Assembly: GCA_017547315.1 (NCBI GenBank)
Contig: JAFYQA010000140.1
Coordinates: 1-8,009 of the forward strand
Length of the DNA stretch: 8,009 bases
Direction of reading: 5' to 3'
Source of the DNA: Roseburia sp.
GTDB taxonomy: Bacteria; Bacillota_A; Clostridia; Lachnospirales; Lachnospiraceae
The translations under genes and the position numbers were made by a program. The notes beneath the pieces are model-generated. The model did no database searches and was not told the origin of the DNA. It saw only the letters and a list, made by a program, of their open reading frames with translations. This document shows positions 2,528-8,009 of this stretch, piece by piece (the stretch's first letter is position 1; every line of letters starts with the position of its first letter).

Positions 2528-5248
2528 ATGAGCGAAAAGCTGGTTTTGATAGATGGACATAGTATTTTAAACAGAGCCTTTTTTGGAATTCCGGATTTGA
2601 CGAATTCGGAAGGGCTTCATACGAATGCGGTATATGGATTTTTAAATATTTTATTTAAAATCCTAGAAGAAGAAAAACCGAATTACTTAACGGTGGCATT
2701 TGACTTATCAGCACCGACTTTCCGCCACAAAATGTTTGAGGAATACAAAGGTACGAGAAAGCCGATGGCAGATGAACTGCGTCAGCAGGTGCCTGTTATG
2801 AAGGAAATGCTTGCAGCGATGGGAATTCCGGTTGTGACCAAAGAAGGTTATGAAGCGGACGATATTCTCGGTACGATTGCGAAAAGAAGCGAAGCACAGG
2901 GGATGGAAGTTTCCATCGTATCTGGTGACCGTGACTTGTTACAGTTAGCGACTGATCATATCAAAATCCGTATTCCAAAGACCAAAAAAACAGGAACTGA
3001 AATCGAAGATTACTATGCAAAAGATGTATTAGAAAAATATCAGGTAAGCCCAATTGAGTTTATCGATGTAAAGGCCTTGATGGGCGATACTTCCGATAAT
3101 ATTCCGGGTGTGCCGGGCATTGGTGAGAAAACTGCCACAGCTTTGATTGTGCAGTATAAGAGCATCGAGAATGCTTATGAGCATGTAGATGAGATCAAAC
3201 CGCCAAGAGCTAGCAAGAATTTAAAAGAAAACTATGACTTGGCACAGATGAGCAAGACTCTTGCGACGATAGAGATTAACGCAGATATCGAGTATGATAT
3301 CACAAATGCAAGATTCGAACAGATTTCTGATTTGTATACAGAAGCAGCTTATATGCTTTGTAAAAAGTTAGAGTTTAAACATTTGCTTGGCAGATTTGAA
3401 GTAACAGCTCCAAAGAATCAGGCAGAAGAATATTTTAAATGTGTCACAGATAAAAAAGAAGCTGAGAAGATTTTTGCCAGAACCAAAGGTGCGCCATGTG
3501 CATTCCAAATCATCCCGTTTGAAGAAGAGAATGGTGGTGTAGAGGAATTAGGACAGATGAGCCTTTTTGCAACACCGCAGGTGAATCAGTTCTTCGGTAT
3601 GGCGCTAGCTTTTGGGGAGGAAGATACTTATTTCTTTAAAGCAAATGAAGAATTAACAAGTGATGTATTGGTTTCATTACTTACAGGTAGTAAAGCGAGT
3701 GAATATATCACTTTGAACTTAAAATCACAGTTAAAATTGCTTGGCATGATTGAGAAAAAACAAAATGGTGCGATTTCTCTGGCGAATTTGTTCGATGGCG
3801 TTATCGCGGCATATTTGCTGAATCCGTTAAAGGGGGATTATCCGTACGAAGATATCGCAAAAGATTACGCCGGACTGATGATTCCATCCCGTGCAGATTT
3901 GCTTGGTAAATTAAGTGTGGAAGCTGCTTTTACTGAGAAAATGGAAGAAGCGTTAAAATATGTCTGCTTCGAGGCGTACACAGCATGGAAGTCTAAACAG
4001 ACTTTAGAAGCAGAATTAAAAGATACCAAGATGTACCAGCTTTTTACCGATATCGAGATGCCATTAGTATTCACGCTGGCGGATATGGAAGCAACAGGTA
4101 TCATTTTAGATGCACAGGATTTGAAGGAATACAGTGATAATCTGTCGGTTCGTATTGCAGAATTAGAAAAGCAGATTTATGCGGCGGCAGGAGAAGAATT
4201 TAACATCAATTCTCCAAAACAATTAGGTGTCATTCTTTTTGAAAAATTAGAATTACCTTATGGTAAGAAGACAAAAACAGGCTACTCCACAGCAGCAGAA
4301 GTGTTAGAAAAACTGGCACCGGAAGCATCGATTGTAGCTGATATTTTAGAATATAGAACGTTAGCAAAATTAAAATCAACCTATGCTGACGGCTTGGTGA
4401 ACTTTATTGCAGAAGACGGCAGAGTGCATACTAATTTTAACCAGACGATTACTGCAACGGGACGACTTAGTAGTACCGACCCGAATCTACAGAATATTCC
4501 GATTCGAATTGAGCTTGGCAGATTAATCCGTAAGGCATTTTTACCGCCAGAAGGTTATGTGTTTATGGATGCGGATTATTCCCAGATTGAACTTCGTGTA
4601 TTAGCGCATATGTCAGGTGACGAGAAGTTAATCGAAGCATATAGACAGGCACAGGATATCCATAGAATTACTGCGTCGCAGGTATTTCATATCCCATTTG
4701 ATGAGGTTACGGATTTACAGCGAAGAAATGCGAAAGCAGTAAACTTTGGCATTGTATATGGTATCAGTTCGTTTGGTTTGAGTCAGGATTTAAGTATTTC
4801 GAAAAAAGAAGCAGCTGAATATATCGAGCGCTATTTTGAAACCTATCCAAAGATTAAACTATTTTTAGATAAATTAGTTGCAGATGCTAAGGAGAAGGGA
4901 TATGTGACGACCATGTTTGGCAGACGCCGTCCGATTCCAGAACTTTCTAGCAGTAATTTCATGCAACGTTCGTTTGGGGAGCGTGTTGCGATGAATGCAC
5001 CGATTCAGGGAACATCGGCAGATATTATTAAGATTGCCATGAACCGTGTGCATGATGCATTGATTGAGCAGGGCTTAAAGTCTCGTCTGACGGTAACAGT
5101 ACACGACGAATTGCTGATTGAGACGGCAAAAGACGAGATTGAAAAAGTAGAAGAGCTTTTAATAGAAGGAATGAAACAGGCGGCAGAACTGGCTGTGACA
5201 TTAGAAGTGGAGGCACATACCGGTGCCAATTGGTATGAAGCCAAATAG
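2528..5248 (+). CDS. polA: DNA polymerase I with a decayed 3'-5' exonuclease domain
   Basis: The 906-residue family A polymerase acts in Okazaki-fragment maturation and excision repair. The 5'-nuclease domain (about 1-290) keeps its metal-binding acids: D9, D59, E109/D111/D112, D134/D136 and D187/D190, plus the GVPGIGEKTA helix-hairpin-helix (194-203). The polymerase domain (about 500-906) has motif A DYSQIELR (catalytic D683), motif B with R732, K736, F740 and Y744, and motif C VHDELL (H859, D860, E861); each lies 22 residues before its E. coli equivalent. Phe at 740 is the usual form that discriminates against dideoxynucleotides. The middle domain (about 296-495) has lost the proofreading acids: positions matching E. 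coli D355, E357, D424 and D501 are Q327, I329, Q401 and E482. It should therefore lack proofreading, as in Bacillus. QMSLF at 343-347 resembles a sliding-clamp binding motif. An AAAGAGGA site precedes the ATG by 9 bases. Confidence 0.97.
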   Translation: MSEKLVLIDGHSILNRAFFGIPDLTNSEGLHTNAVYGFLNILFKILEEEKPNYLTVAFDLSAPTFRHKMFEEYKGTRKPMADELRQQVPVMKEMLAAMGIPVVTKEGYEADDILGTIAKRSEAQGMEVSIVSGDRDLLQLATDHIKIRIPKTKKTGTEIEDYYAKDVLEKYQVSPIEFIDVKALMGDTSDNIPGVPGIGEKTATALIVQYKSIENAYEHVDEIKPPRASKNLKENYDLAQMSKTLATIEINADIEYDITNARFEQISDLYTEAAYMLCKKLEFKHLLGRFEVTAPKNQAEEYFKCVTDKKEAEKIFARTKGAPCAFQIIPFEEENGGVEELGQMSLFATPQVNQFFGMALAFGEEDTYFFKANEELTSDVLVSLLTGSKASEYITLNLKSQLKLLGMIEKKQNGAISLANLFDGVIAAYLLNPLKGDYPYEDIAKDYAGLMIPSRADLLGKLSVEAAFTEKMEEALKYVCFEAYTAWKSKQTLEAELKDTKMYQLFTDIEMPLVFTLADMEATGIILDAQDLKEYSDNLSVRIAELEKQIYAAAGEEFNINSPKQLGVILFEKLELPYGKKTKTGYSTAAEVLEKLAPEASIVADILEYRTLAKLKSTYADGLVNFIAEDGRVHTNFNQTITATGRLSSTDPNLQNIPIRIELGRLIRKAFLPPEGYVFMDADYSQIELRVLAHMSGDEKLIEAYRQAQDIHRITASQVFHIPFDEVTDLQRRNAKAVNFGIVYGISSFGLSQDLSISKKEAAEYIERYFETYPKIKLFLDKLVADAKEKGYVTTMFGRRRPIPELSSSNFMQRSFGERVAMNAPIQGTSADIIKIAMNRVHDALIEQGLKSRLTVTVHDELLIETAKDEIEKVEELLIEGMKQAAELAVTLEVEAHTGANWYEAK

Positions 5249-5324
5249 TTTTATTGGGTGATTAGTCCAGTTAAGATGTAGAGCCGGTCAGATTCTTCTT
5301 GAAAGTTATAGGGAGAGATGAAAA

Positions 5325-5924
5325 ATGAAATTCATAGGAATCACCGGAGGTGTAGGAGCCGGCAAGTCGGCAGTCCTTAAATATTTAAGTGAAAAAGAAA
5401 ATATTCGGGTGATGTTAGCGGATGAAATTGCACATGATTTAATGTTGCAAGGGACAGAGTGTTATAAAAAAATAATAAGGGCATTCATACACGAAGATAT
5501 TTTAGACTGTAGTGGTGAGTTCGACCGCGTGAAACTGGCGAAGATCATTTTTTCTTCGGATGAGAAACGTTTAAAAATGAATGCAATCGTTCATCCGGCA
5601 GTAAAAGAATATGTAAAAGAACAGTTTGTGTTAGAAAAGGAAAAAGGAGAGCTGGATTTTTTGATTTTAGAGGCAGCACTTCTGATTGAAGACCACTATG
5701 ATGAGGTGTGCGATGAACTCTGGTATATTTATGCATCACCAGAAGTTCGTAAAGAACGGCTTATGACAACGCGCGGTTATTCCGAAGAAAAGGTACAACA
5801 GATCTTTGACAGCCAGCTTTCGGATGAAATTTATCGAAAAAAGTGCAAAGTTACCATTGACAATAACGGAGATTTATCGGAAACTTTTCTACAGATAGAT
5901 AAAGCACTTGGATTTTTGGAAGAT
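5325..5924 (+). other. coaE: Dephospho-CoA kinase (CoaE) domain of the fused frame
   Basis: CoaE phosphorylates the 3'-hydroxyl of the ribose of dephospho-CoA with ATP, the last step of coenzyme A synthesis in the cytosol. Residues 4-15 hold the P-loop IGITGGVGAGKS (K14, S15). LADEIAHDL (31-39) carries D33, at the place of the conserved Asp of the DAD-type motif. FDRVKLAKIIFS (66-77) and NAIVHPAVKEYV (86-97) match the conserved LDR...HP segment. LILEAALLIED (113-123) corresponds to the usual PLLFE strand, with Pro replaced by Ala. ERLMTTRGYSEEKVQQI (144-160) is the lid with its arginines, and DSQLSDE follows. The length of about 200 residues is normal for a whole CoaE, so nothing appears to be missing. 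The symbol is secure for the domain. Confidence 0.93.
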
Positions 5925-8009
5925 ACAACAAAGGAGAATGTGATTGGAATGGAACAGCCATTTGTATTTGGATTAGACATAGGAACAAGAAATGTAGTAG
6001 GTACCGTAGGGTATTTAGAGGACGAGCATAGTTTTATTGTTCAGGCTCAGTGCATCATGGAGCATGAGACAAGAGCTATGATTGACGGTCAGATTCACGA
6101 CATTGGTCGTGTTGCCAGAACAATTACAAAAGTAAAAGAGGCATTAGAAGAACAGATTAAGCAACCGCTTACAGATGTATGTATCGCAGCTGCCGGACGT
6201 GTGTTAAAAACGATTAATGTATCAGTAGAATATGAATATCCGGAAGAATCCGTGGTAACAGCAGAAGATATTCATACATTAGACTTACTGGGCATTGAAA
6301 ACGCACAGAGTATTTTAAAAGAAGAAAATGATACACAGTACAAGTTCTATTGTGTAGGATATACAGTAGTTAAATACTATATCAATGATGAACCTTTTTC
6401 CAATATTGAAGGTCATAAAGCTCGCAAAATCAGCGAGGAGATTATTGTAACCTTCCTCCCGGAAGACGTAGTAGATGGTTTGTATTCTGCAGTAGGACAG
6501 GCAGGCTTAAATGTAGCAAGCCTTACCTTAGAGCCTATCGCTGCGATTAATATTGCTATTCCGGAAGCATTCCGTATGTTAAATATTGCTTTAGTAGATA
6601 TTGGAGCAGGTACATCCGATATTTCTGTAACAAAAGGTGGAAGTATCACAGCGTATGGTATGATTCCGCTTGCAGGTGATGAAATTACAGACTTGATTGT
6701 ACAACAGTATTTGGTAGATTTTAAAACTGCAGAAGCGATTAAGCTTGCTAGCAGCAAAGGCGGCGATATCACATACAAAGATATTATGTTGATTGAGCAT
6801 ACCATTACATCCGAAGAAATTTGGAAACTTGCAGAGTCTACCGTAGAAAAAATGACAACAGCAGTAGCGGCTAAGATTAAGGAACTCAATGGTGATAAAG
6901 CAGTCAGTGCGGCGTTTATTGTCGGTGGCGGCGGTAAAATCCATGGTTATACTGAAAGTCTTGCAGAAAAGCTTGGTATTATAAAAGAACGAGTAGCATT
7001 GCGTGGTGAAGAAGTATTACAGGAAGTAACTTTCTTACAGGACGATATTAAAAAAGACCCATTATTAGTTACACCAATTGGTATTTGTGTGAACTATTAT
7101 CATCAGAAAAATAGTTTTATTATGGTGCGTTTAAATGGGGAGCGTGTAAAATTATACAATAATAATAAGTTGACGATTGTGGATGCTGCATTACAGGCAG
7201 GTTTAAAGAATGAGGATTTGTTCCCAAGACGTGGAAAAGAGATTCATTACAAGATTAATGGTGTGGATAAAGTAGAACGTGGTGCAGCGGGTGAATCTGC
7301 CGTGATTACTATGAACGGAAAACCAGCAGGTATGAATACACGTTTAGAATCAAATTGTGACATTCAGATTCAGGTGTCTACGCAGGGAGAAGATGCAGTA
7401 CTTCGTGTAGAAAAATTAGAAGAATACAAAGGACAGCAGTTGACTTTTGTAGTAAACGGCACAAGAGTAACCTGCCCGAAATGCGTAGAAGTCAACGGGG
7501 AGTTAAAACCGGGAGCATACGAGATTCAGGATGGTGATGTAATCGAGGTTCGTGCTTATTATACAGTTGAGCAGATTGCGAAATTTATGGATGTAGAAGT
7601 GGATATGACAGAGGATGTTTTTGTCAATAACCGCAGTGTAGATATGGATACCCGTGTATATGACAATTTTACATTGGATTGGAAAACATTATCCTATGCA
7701 GTAGCGGAAGAACCTGGTAACAATGTAGATGAAATAGCAGCGGATGATGAAGATACCGTGGTAGAAGATGCTACAAATGATGATGTAAATCTTACGACAG
7801 CTTCAAAAGTAGACAGCATTCAGAATGTTCAGGTATACGTCAATGGGCTGCCAGTTATGTTGACCGGGAAAAGCGAATATGTTTTTGTAGATATTTTTGA
7901 TTATTATAATTTTGACTTAAAGGCTGGAAACGGACGTGGCGTGATTACTCAGTTAAATGGAGAAGATGCGGCATACGTTGCAGTTCTAAAAAATGGTGAC
8001 CAGATTAAA
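5325..8009 (+). CDS. coaE: CoaE-FtsA-like fusion frame, open at the right edge
   Basis: One frame starts at ATG 5325 (AGGGAG at 5310-5315, 9 bases upstream) and runs 895 codons to the window edge without a stop. Residues 1-200 are a full dephospho-CoA kinase. Residues 209-600 are an FtsA/PilM-type ASKHA ATPase. Residues 600-895 form a tail with repeated NG...GD-x-I signatures. The join (residues 195-215) has no linker: the last CoaE helix ends near LGFLED and the ATPase begins at MEQPFVFGLDIG. In most bacteria the two proteins are separate. A ribosome binding site and ATG at the join could also give a free FtsA-like protein. The frame lies 76 bases after polA with no clear terminator or promoter between. 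The absence of a stop is seen directly; whether a single bifunctional chain is made in vivo is not known. The last domain seems nearly complete, so the true stop is probably close to the edge. Confidence 0.8.
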   Translation, partial: MKFIGITGGVGAGKSAVLKYLSEKENIRVMLADEIAHDLMLQGTECYKKIIRAFIHEDILDCSGEFDRVKLAKIIFSSDEKRLKMNAIVHPAVKEYVKEQFVLEKEKGELDFLILEAALLIEDHYDEVCDELWYIYASPEVRKERLMTTRGYSEEKVQQIFDSQLSDEIYRKKCKVTIDNNGDLSETFLQIDKALGFLEDTTKENVIGMEQPFVFGLDIGTRNVVGTVGYLEDEHSFIVQAQCIMEHETRAMIDGQIHDIGRVARTITKVKEALEEQIKQPLTDVCIAAAGRVLKTINVSVEYEYPEESVVTAEDIHTLDLLGIENAQSILKEENDTQYKFYCVGYTVVKYYINDEPFSNIEGHKARKISEEIIVTFLPEDVVDGLYSAVGQAGLNVASLTLEPIAAINIAIPEAFRMLNIALVDIGAGTSDISVTKGGSITAYGMIPLAGDEITDLIVQQYLVDFKTAEAIKLASSKGGDITYKDIMLIEHTITSEEIWKLAESTVEKMTTAVAAKIKELNGDKAVSAAFIVGGGGKIHGYTESLAEKLGIIKERVALRGEEVLQEVTFLQDDIKKDPLLVTPIGICVNYYHQKNSFIMVRLNGERVKLYNNNKLTIVDAALQAGLKNEDLFPRRGKEIHYKINGVDKVERGAAGESAVITMNGKPAGMNTRLESNCDIQIQVSTQGEDAVLRVEKLEEYKGQQLTFVVNGTRVTCPKCVEVNGELKPGAYEIQDGDVIEVRAYYTVEQIAKFMDVEVDMTEDVFVNNRSVDMDTRVYDNFTLDWKTLSYAVAEEPGNNVDEIAADDEDTVVEDATNDDVNLTTASKVDSIQNVQVYVNGLPVMLTGKSEYVFVDIFDYYNFDLKAGNGRGVITQLNGEDAAYVAVLKNGDQIK
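5931..5951 (+). promoter_or_regulatory. Internal ribosome binding site and ATG at the CoaE/FtsA-like junction
   Basis: AAGGAG at 5931-5936 is followed by an in-frame GTG at 5940 (3-base spacing, too close) and an in-frame ATG at 5949 (12-base spacing, long but tolerated in Firmicutes). The ATG falls exactly where a stand-alone FtsA-like protein would begin (MEQPFVFGLDIG). An out-of-frame ATGTGA sits at 5938-5943. This looks like the start region of a formerly, or still, separately translated gene. Confidence 0.55.
5949..8009 (+). other. FtsA/PilM-like ASKHA ATPase portion; possible separate translation product
   Basis: From M209 of the fused frame the protein has the actin/Hsp70/sugar-kinase nucleotide fold. 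Phosphate-1 is FGLDIGTRNVVGTV (215-228, D218), phosphate-2 is ALVDIGAGTSDIS (422-434, D425), and the adenosine loop is FIVGGGGKI (531-539). The stretch around 290-395 between phosphate-1 and phosphate-2 sits where FtsA carries its SHS2 (1C) domain, and no Hsp70-like substrate domain is present. This places it with FtsA/PilM/MreB relatives that polymerise or scaffold at the membrane. It is much longer than true FtsA (~420 residues) because of a long tail, and the FtsZ/membrane-binding C-terminal amphipathic helix of FtsA is not visible in the part present. No transmembrane segment is seen. A role in division or envelope assembly is only inferred by homology; the exact function is unknown. Confidence 0.75.
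7110..8009 (+). other. C-terminal tail with repeated NG...GD-x-I units (probable tandem beta-grasp domains)
   Basis: After the last ASKHA helix (TPIGICVNYY) come about 300 residues built from short hydrophobic strands with Asn-Gly turns at 604, 645, 664, 711, 724, 840, 878 and 890. Two copies share the same spacing: NGE at 724 with GDVI at 737-740, and NGE at 878 with GDQI at 891-894. A looser third has MNG at 663-665 and CDIQI at 678-682. This strand-turn pattern resembles ThiS/MoaD/TGS-like beta-grasp folds, but no C-terminal Gly-Gly is visible. A strongly acidic, low-complexity linker (about 795-830) separates the last unit from the rest. A CPKC pair at 717-720 is isolated. Fold assignment is inference from pattern alone. 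Confidence 0.5.

Follow-up and report, generated by a model that had tools for sequence, protein, structure and literature searches.

Does an open reading frame that joins a dephospho-coenzyme A (CoA) kinase, CoaE, to an FtsA-like ATPase yield one protein or two, and is the join itself genuine? The question is raised by a stretch of 8,009 nucleotides (nt) from Roseburia sp. (Lachnospiraceae; assembly GCA_017547315.1, contig JAFYQA010000140.1), hereafter called the window, in which a frame on the (+) strand runs from ATG 5325 to the last base, 8009, for 895 codons and with no stop. Reading the codons again bears out this frame, which had first been pointed out by a model from the letters alone (the sequence-only reading). 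On the basis of sequence comparisons we propose, with a probability of roughly 70%, that it is one gene with two products, namely a CoaE-FtsA-like fusion of about 100 kDa and a free FtsA-like protein of about 76 kDa. In the following, W denotes the window, L DNA loci, P protein clusters (the window is P0001) and G genomes.

The CoaE module occupies residues 1–204 (5325..5936; this and all other features given for the window lie on the (+) strand), and its motifs are complete, as had been claimed, with the P-loop GGVGAGKS at residues 8–15 (5346–5369) and RGYSEEK at residues 150–156 (5772–5792) of the translation. The module scores above the cut-offs of PF01121 (136.7 bits against 27, residues 3–185) and TIGR00152 (143.1 bits against 65.55, residues 4–192); its best solved relative is the dephospho-CoA kinase 2if2 (1.6e-25), and it resembles the CoaE structure 1jjv (Foldseek, TMt 0.83). 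In an AlphaFold2 model, the FtsA-fold ATPase domain follows at residues 212–595 (5958..7109) and a C-terminal extension at residues 596–895 (7110..8009), which runs past the window end. The predicted local distance difference test score (pLDDT), taken in ten-residue blocks, is 92–97 in the CoaE module except for the last block (84) and 81–97 in the FtsA fold, and is below 50 in a flexible junction at residues 202–210 (5928..5954). The earlier statement that the two halves meet with no linker is therefore nearly right, apart from this short stretch between the end of the CoaE helix (around residue 204) and the beginning of the FtsA fold (around residue 212). The sequence-only reading had overlooked two elements at the join: AAAGGAG at 5930..5936, read in frame as ...Thr-Lys-Glu, which on the basis of duplex energy and conservation is a putative Shine-Dalgarno sequence, and the in-frame ATG at 5949..5951 (Met209), which on the basis of Met-Glu-Gln conservation is the candidate start of a free FtsA-like protein.

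The fused frame is found in many close relatives. In the nearest genome, Roseburia sp. RGIG7456 (G001; L001 and L004), the locus is 89% identical, the frame is likewise unbroken, and the stop comes after residue 900; because this nearest frame has 900 codons and the nearest complete clusters have 900 aa, about five codons and the stop are absent from the 3' end of the window. When the whole protein was the query, 118 of the best 120 clusters listed both the CoaE and the FtsA Pfam families and had N-termini of CoaE length; such a query favours fused proteins, whereas a query with the FtsA-like part does not favour them by score. Among the best 120 clusters for the latter, drawn from the 7995 scored candidates sharing most words, 35 match the entire query (100%) at 70% identity or more, and 33 of these (P0001–P0033, the window included) are fused, P0033 beginning inside CoaE. 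A separate protein, P0121 (68%), scores among the 35, three other separate ones (P0134, P0135 and P0142) have 73% identity over 85% of the query, and the remaining 85 clusters include one fused member (P0035). The 35 form a single group with a support of 100 in a midpoint-rooted tree of 40 of these proteins. The in-frame chain is thus genuine, and the suggestion that it reflects a recent loss of a stop codon is refuted, because the join is common to 33 of the 35 close clusters and recurs in other branches, including Lachnospiraceae bacterium XBD2001 (L010). In a plasmid collection, no record spans 80% of the query.

The second product is suggested by the junction itself. The duplex formed by the window AAAGGAG preceding ATG 5949 with the anti-Shine-Dalgarno sequence (anti-SD) has an energy of −11.7 kcal/mol, a value that 12 of 1718 other in-frame ATGs reach. 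Median energies were taken over junctions with an ATG no more than 39 nt upstream of the FtsA domain, the closest one being scored, which leaves out 20 of the 135 separate and four of the 26 fused junctions; they are −8.8 for fused loci (22), −8.6 for separate genes (115 loci) and −3.1 for other in-frame ATGs (1718 sites), the fused loci differing from the last with p=8e-11, although the rows are not independent. With the last Met ahead of FGLDIGTR as the reference column, Lys occupies −6 and Glu −5 in all 33 fused clusters, and the Met is followed by Glu-Gln in every one; there were 9–16 changes in each of columns −12 to −7, counts that are inflated by linker indels displacing the outer columns, and 2–7 in each of columns −4 to −1. 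The bases AAGGAG are read in all four rows of this clade with DNA (W, L001, L024 and L109). When the six codons before the ATG were recoded synonymously, the simulated sites were weaker than the observed ones (Fisher p=0.003 over 17 loci; 0.013 for the window), 22 loci having been tested and near-copies dropped by hand to leave the 17 in the combined value. Also, the predicted start of P0122, which has no CoaE, is the matching Met. Protein conservation (33/33), bases (4/4), duplex energies and the recoding test thus agree on a conserved internal Shine-Dalgarno sequence and start; the junction is likely to be a translation start as well as coding sequence, and since the frame retains these signals, the separate FtsA-like protein has probably not been supplanted by the fusion.

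The frame across the linker has also been examined for selection. Over columns −12 to −1, the 33 fused rows show about 97 amino-acid changes, a total that linker indels inflate, and their linkers show seven length changes, all of whole codons (necessarily so, since the rows are fused); a rough neutral estimate would expect 3–6 stops over the same changes, plus frame-breaking indels. In L010 (XBD2001) and L011, 31 linker codons precede the internal ATG; six of them differ synonymously between the two loci and none nonsynonymously, a pattern expected by chance at 2e-4 to 8e-4 (kappa 2–8); elsewhere in this pair the synonymous to nonsynonymous counts are 21:7 in CoaE and 39:2 in the FtsA part (408 codons). 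Selection has probably kept the frame open, judging from the rough estimate in the window clade and from the codon comparison in the XBD2001 clade.

Several observations weigh against a selected join with an internal start. A stronger Shine-Dalgarno site inside fused frames than before separate genes was considered and rejected, there being no difference (p=0.46). The 33-cluster comparison is at the protein level, and the four rows from which the AAGGAG bases were read form two close pairs. No effect of recoding is seen at six of the 17 loci (L008, L012, L020, L056, L110 and L172; p 0.51–0.86). An ATG within 39 nt is absent from four of the 26 fused loci (L018, L055, L063 and L064), and the nearest ATG of two others (L056 and L172) has a weak site, so that an internal start is not universal; at these six loci the fusion may be the sole product. 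In the window, the gap of 12 nt between AAAGGAG and the ATG is on the long side of the norm for Shine-Dalgarno spacing. The two unfused clusters among the 35, P0034 and P0122, are nested in the fused clade as FtsA-like proteins alone, predicted to begin at or slightly before the internal start; they are either reversions, in which case the fusion can be lost, or effects of assembly or gene calling. Finally, over the whole linker up to the FtsA domain, W and L001 have no synonymous and two nonsynonymous codon differences, which gives no purifying signal for that pair; with 1:1 for L006/L039, 1:0 for L024/L109, 0:1 for L040/L041 and 6:9 for L008/L056, the linker is not strongly conserved as a rule.

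We explain these observations as follows. A once separate pair of coaE and ftsA-like genes would have become one frame, in which the second gene retained its ribosome-binding site and start. Ribosomes entering at 5325 meet no stop and would produce the CoaE-FtsA-like protein; those entering at ATG 5949 by way of AAAGGAG would produce the free FtsA-like protein. Because CoaE has one above-cut-off match in each of eight related genomes (G016 has a second match below the cut-off), the fused form is the sole CoaE of fused species, its CoaE part is likely to catalyse the last step of CoA synthesis, and every CoaE molecule in the cell would be attached to an FtsA-like subunit, which could co-assemble with the additional free form. 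The fusion would thus fix CoaE to an FtsA-like assembly, and internal initiation would supply free subunits. An unlikely alternative is that only the long protein is made and the internal Shine-Dalgarno sequence and ATG are an unused relic. The L010/L011 linker, which evolves like coding sequence, agrees with this view, and a fusion lacking the internal start appears viable, given the four fused loci whose FtsA domain has no ATG in the preceding 39 nt (the linker of one has 301 codons); however, a relic should decay, yet Lys-Glu and the spacing to Met are fixed in all 33 clusters while the preceding columns have changed repeatedly, and the window codons bind the anti-SD better than their synonymous alternatives.

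How often the join has arisen was examined in 180 sequences, the window included and L002 and L003 omitted as other proteins. An FtsA-like domain is present in 178 and both domains in 174, on the same strand in every case; neither domain was found in L022 and L023, and no CoaE in L142, L144, L153 and L171. Removal of repeated junctions reduced the 174 to 161 distinct ones, of which 26 are fused and 135 separate. Fused frames account for 10 of 58 genus loci (58 of 62 genus genomes were fetched), 10 of 96 both-domain loci in other genera of the family (100 fetched of at least 124 with an FtsA-like match) and 8 of 18 both-domain loci in a scan of genome contigs, the three sets overlapping. The coaE/ftsA-like pair is adjacent across the sampled Lachnospiraceae. 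An FtsA-like match was obtained in at least 126 of the 298 family genomes sampled; many others listed a CoaE-strength match only, and the FtsA-like ATPase therefore looks patchy in the family. On a concatenated tree excluding the linker (a quick LG+G4 tree with support from the Shimodaira-Hasegawa-like approximate likelihood ratio test only), the fusion state changes 13 times over the 161 junctions, gains and losses being counted together, against 24.4 times in shuffles, and at least seven of the 13 changes are forced by supported branches. The window lies within a fused set of four (support 99), to which L027 probably belongs as a fifth (94). The changes on the tree do not favour a single ancestral event for all fused genes; apparently the family has acquired the fusion on several occasions.

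The separate junctions suggest how the frames could join. In 41 of the 116 separate junctions with an ATG no more than 75 nt from the FtsA domain, the nearest such ATG is upstream of the coaE end, the commonest overlap being 8 bases (22 of 116; range −50 to +487). From the Shine-Dalgarno core to the ATG, the fused loci L040 and L041 have one base fewer than the separate L108, L098 and L043, and the same is true of the fused L028 and L035 in comparison with the separate L045 and its kin. Such a shortening removes the overlap stop, and therefore the frames join while the signals of the second gene are undisturbed; deletion of a single base from this short spacer is the probable origin of the fusion in two clades at least. 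In the window clade the joining step is not visible, because the nearest separate rows, L029 and L048, are too different. The spacers at the L040 and L028 junctions are short and A-rich, and slippage there could in principle toggle between the fused and separate states. The 301-codon linker of the fused L018 (L018:4574-5476) is rich in Glu, Ala, Ser and Gly and includes degenerate tandem repeats with units of 15 to 102 bases.

This ease of joining bears on the view that the two proteins act on their own, the fused chain being a by-product that is tolerated after a neutral stop loss, with no selection for the join. One-base changes suffice to create a fusion, the state is labile (13 changes over 161 junctions), linkers are variable with no synonymous excess between W and L001, and P0034 and P0122 appear to be split again. 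We nevertheless regard this view as quite improbable, because the fused form is the sole CoaE of fused species (single copy in 8/8 genomes), about 97 amino-acid and seven length changes in the 33 rows have left the frame open, and purifying selection acts on the L010/L011 linker. A sequencing or assembly artefact at the junction, or a strain-specific stop loss, both of which the sequence-only reading wished to see excluded, is practically out of the question, since the nearest genome and many database clusters have the same open junction and the XBD2001 record, whose title carries no label of a metagenome-assembled genome, is also fused, even though fused and split frames in other clades differ within a short A-rich spacer.

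Under the reading of one gene with two products, the nature of the FtsA-like part becomes important. The FtsA fold covers the whole ATPase domain and PF14450 is matched with 39.3 bits (cut-off 31.8). The earlier label of FtsA should nevertheless read FtsA-like, because TIGR01174, aligned over 2–368 of 371 model positions, reaches 88 bits and misses its curated cut-off of 175.85, and because there is a C-terminal extension of about 300 residues. No protein exceeds the TIGR01174 cut-off in any of the eight related genomes, where the FtsA-like protein is the sole one aligning, below the cut-off, to nearly the whole model. FtsZ is found in 8/8 of these genomes and SepF in 7/8, the genome with no SepF match (G001) being 69% complete; the FtsA-like protein therefore need not be the sole anchor of FtsZ. 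The extension is mostly beta in the model, with pLDDT below 50 at residues 792–830, and its weak matches are of TGS/ThiS type: a TGS match is below the cut-off, and some relatives have precomputed PF02824 or PF02597. FtsA has a C-terminal amphipathic helix that targets it to the membrane; the window model ends in strands, with about five final residues missing from the window, and the relatives P0005, P0034, P0121, P0127 and P0035 terminate in AWKEN or DWKEN.

As for the purpose of the join, fused genes often pair functionally linked proteins. That the sole CoaE has been fused repeatedly to an FtsA-like ATPase, and that some clades at least have maintained the fusion, suggests a hitherto unrecognised connection of cofactor supply with the division or envelope machinery in a major gut family. 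We tentatively suggest, as a possibility well short of even odds, that Lachnospiraceae have repeatedly put their sole CoA-completing enzyme on an FtsA-like, possibly filament-forming, division or envelope protein, with the internal ribosome-binding site setting the ratio of enzyme-bearing to free subunits; if true, this would be a built-in coupling of CoA supply to cell growth or division, the latter being the tie that the sequence-only reading had thought possible. Tethering could serve to localise CoA synthesis, to balance or fix co-expression, or merely to stabilise CoaE, much as UPF0157 is reported to assist the folding of the mycobacterial enzyme (PMC2765170). Whatever its purpose, the join can be studied in this family against sister species in which the two genes are separate, and it provides well-defined examples of neighbours fused into a single frame that may nevertheless be expressed as two proteins.

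On its upstream side the fused gene adjoins polA for DNA polymerase I (2528..5248, (+) strand; PF00476, PF02739 and PF01367). In E. coli, coaE is a neighbour of zapD. A promoter search of the junction region gave a single weak consensus match (5299–5326), shuffles averaging more (2.4), and no terminator-like site was found in that region. In the nearest genome, an open reading frame with a metallo-beta-lactamase fold (L004:6688-7506) lies 3' of the fused gene, and its listed TTG start overlaps the end of that gene.

The architecture itself is already present in annotation: P0051 (JGI) is annotated 'dephospho-CoA kinase/cell division protein FtsA', and P0011, the sole close relative named by NCBI, is annotated 'dephospho-CoA kinase'; because the latter bears only the CoaE name, its FtsA-like half is easily overlooked. 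Our literature search, with most subscription journals outside its coverage, found no description of a CoaE/FtsA-like fusion, its distribution, its recurrence or its internal start. What is new here is a multidomain fusion of CoaE with a new partner that is recurrent and has a conserved internal start.

Known systems resemble this locus in part. Bacterial FtsA structures (7q6i, 7q6d, 3wt0 and 1e4g) have 16–22% identity to the window protein, which differs in its C-terminal extension, its N-terminal CoaE and its sub-cut-off TIGR01174 score. Dephospho-CoA kinase likewise lies within a larger chain in the bifunctional coenzyme A synthase (PDB 2f6r, itself among the solved structures matched), where the partner is another CoA-pathway enzyme, not a cytoskeletal ATPase. 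The CoaE part of the window scores 104.9 bits against NF002879 (cut-off 215), which presumably represents the UPF0157-bearing form of CoaE. Mycobacterial CoaE also has an extra domain on one chain with the CoaE module; the extra domain there is UPF0157, reported to aid folding of the enzyme (PMC2765170), whereas here it is an FtsA fold. In-frame internal starts in bacteria (e.g. PMC11005335) likewise have one frame with two start sites and long and short products; unlike proteoforms of that type, the short product here would be the whole of a former neighbouring gene.

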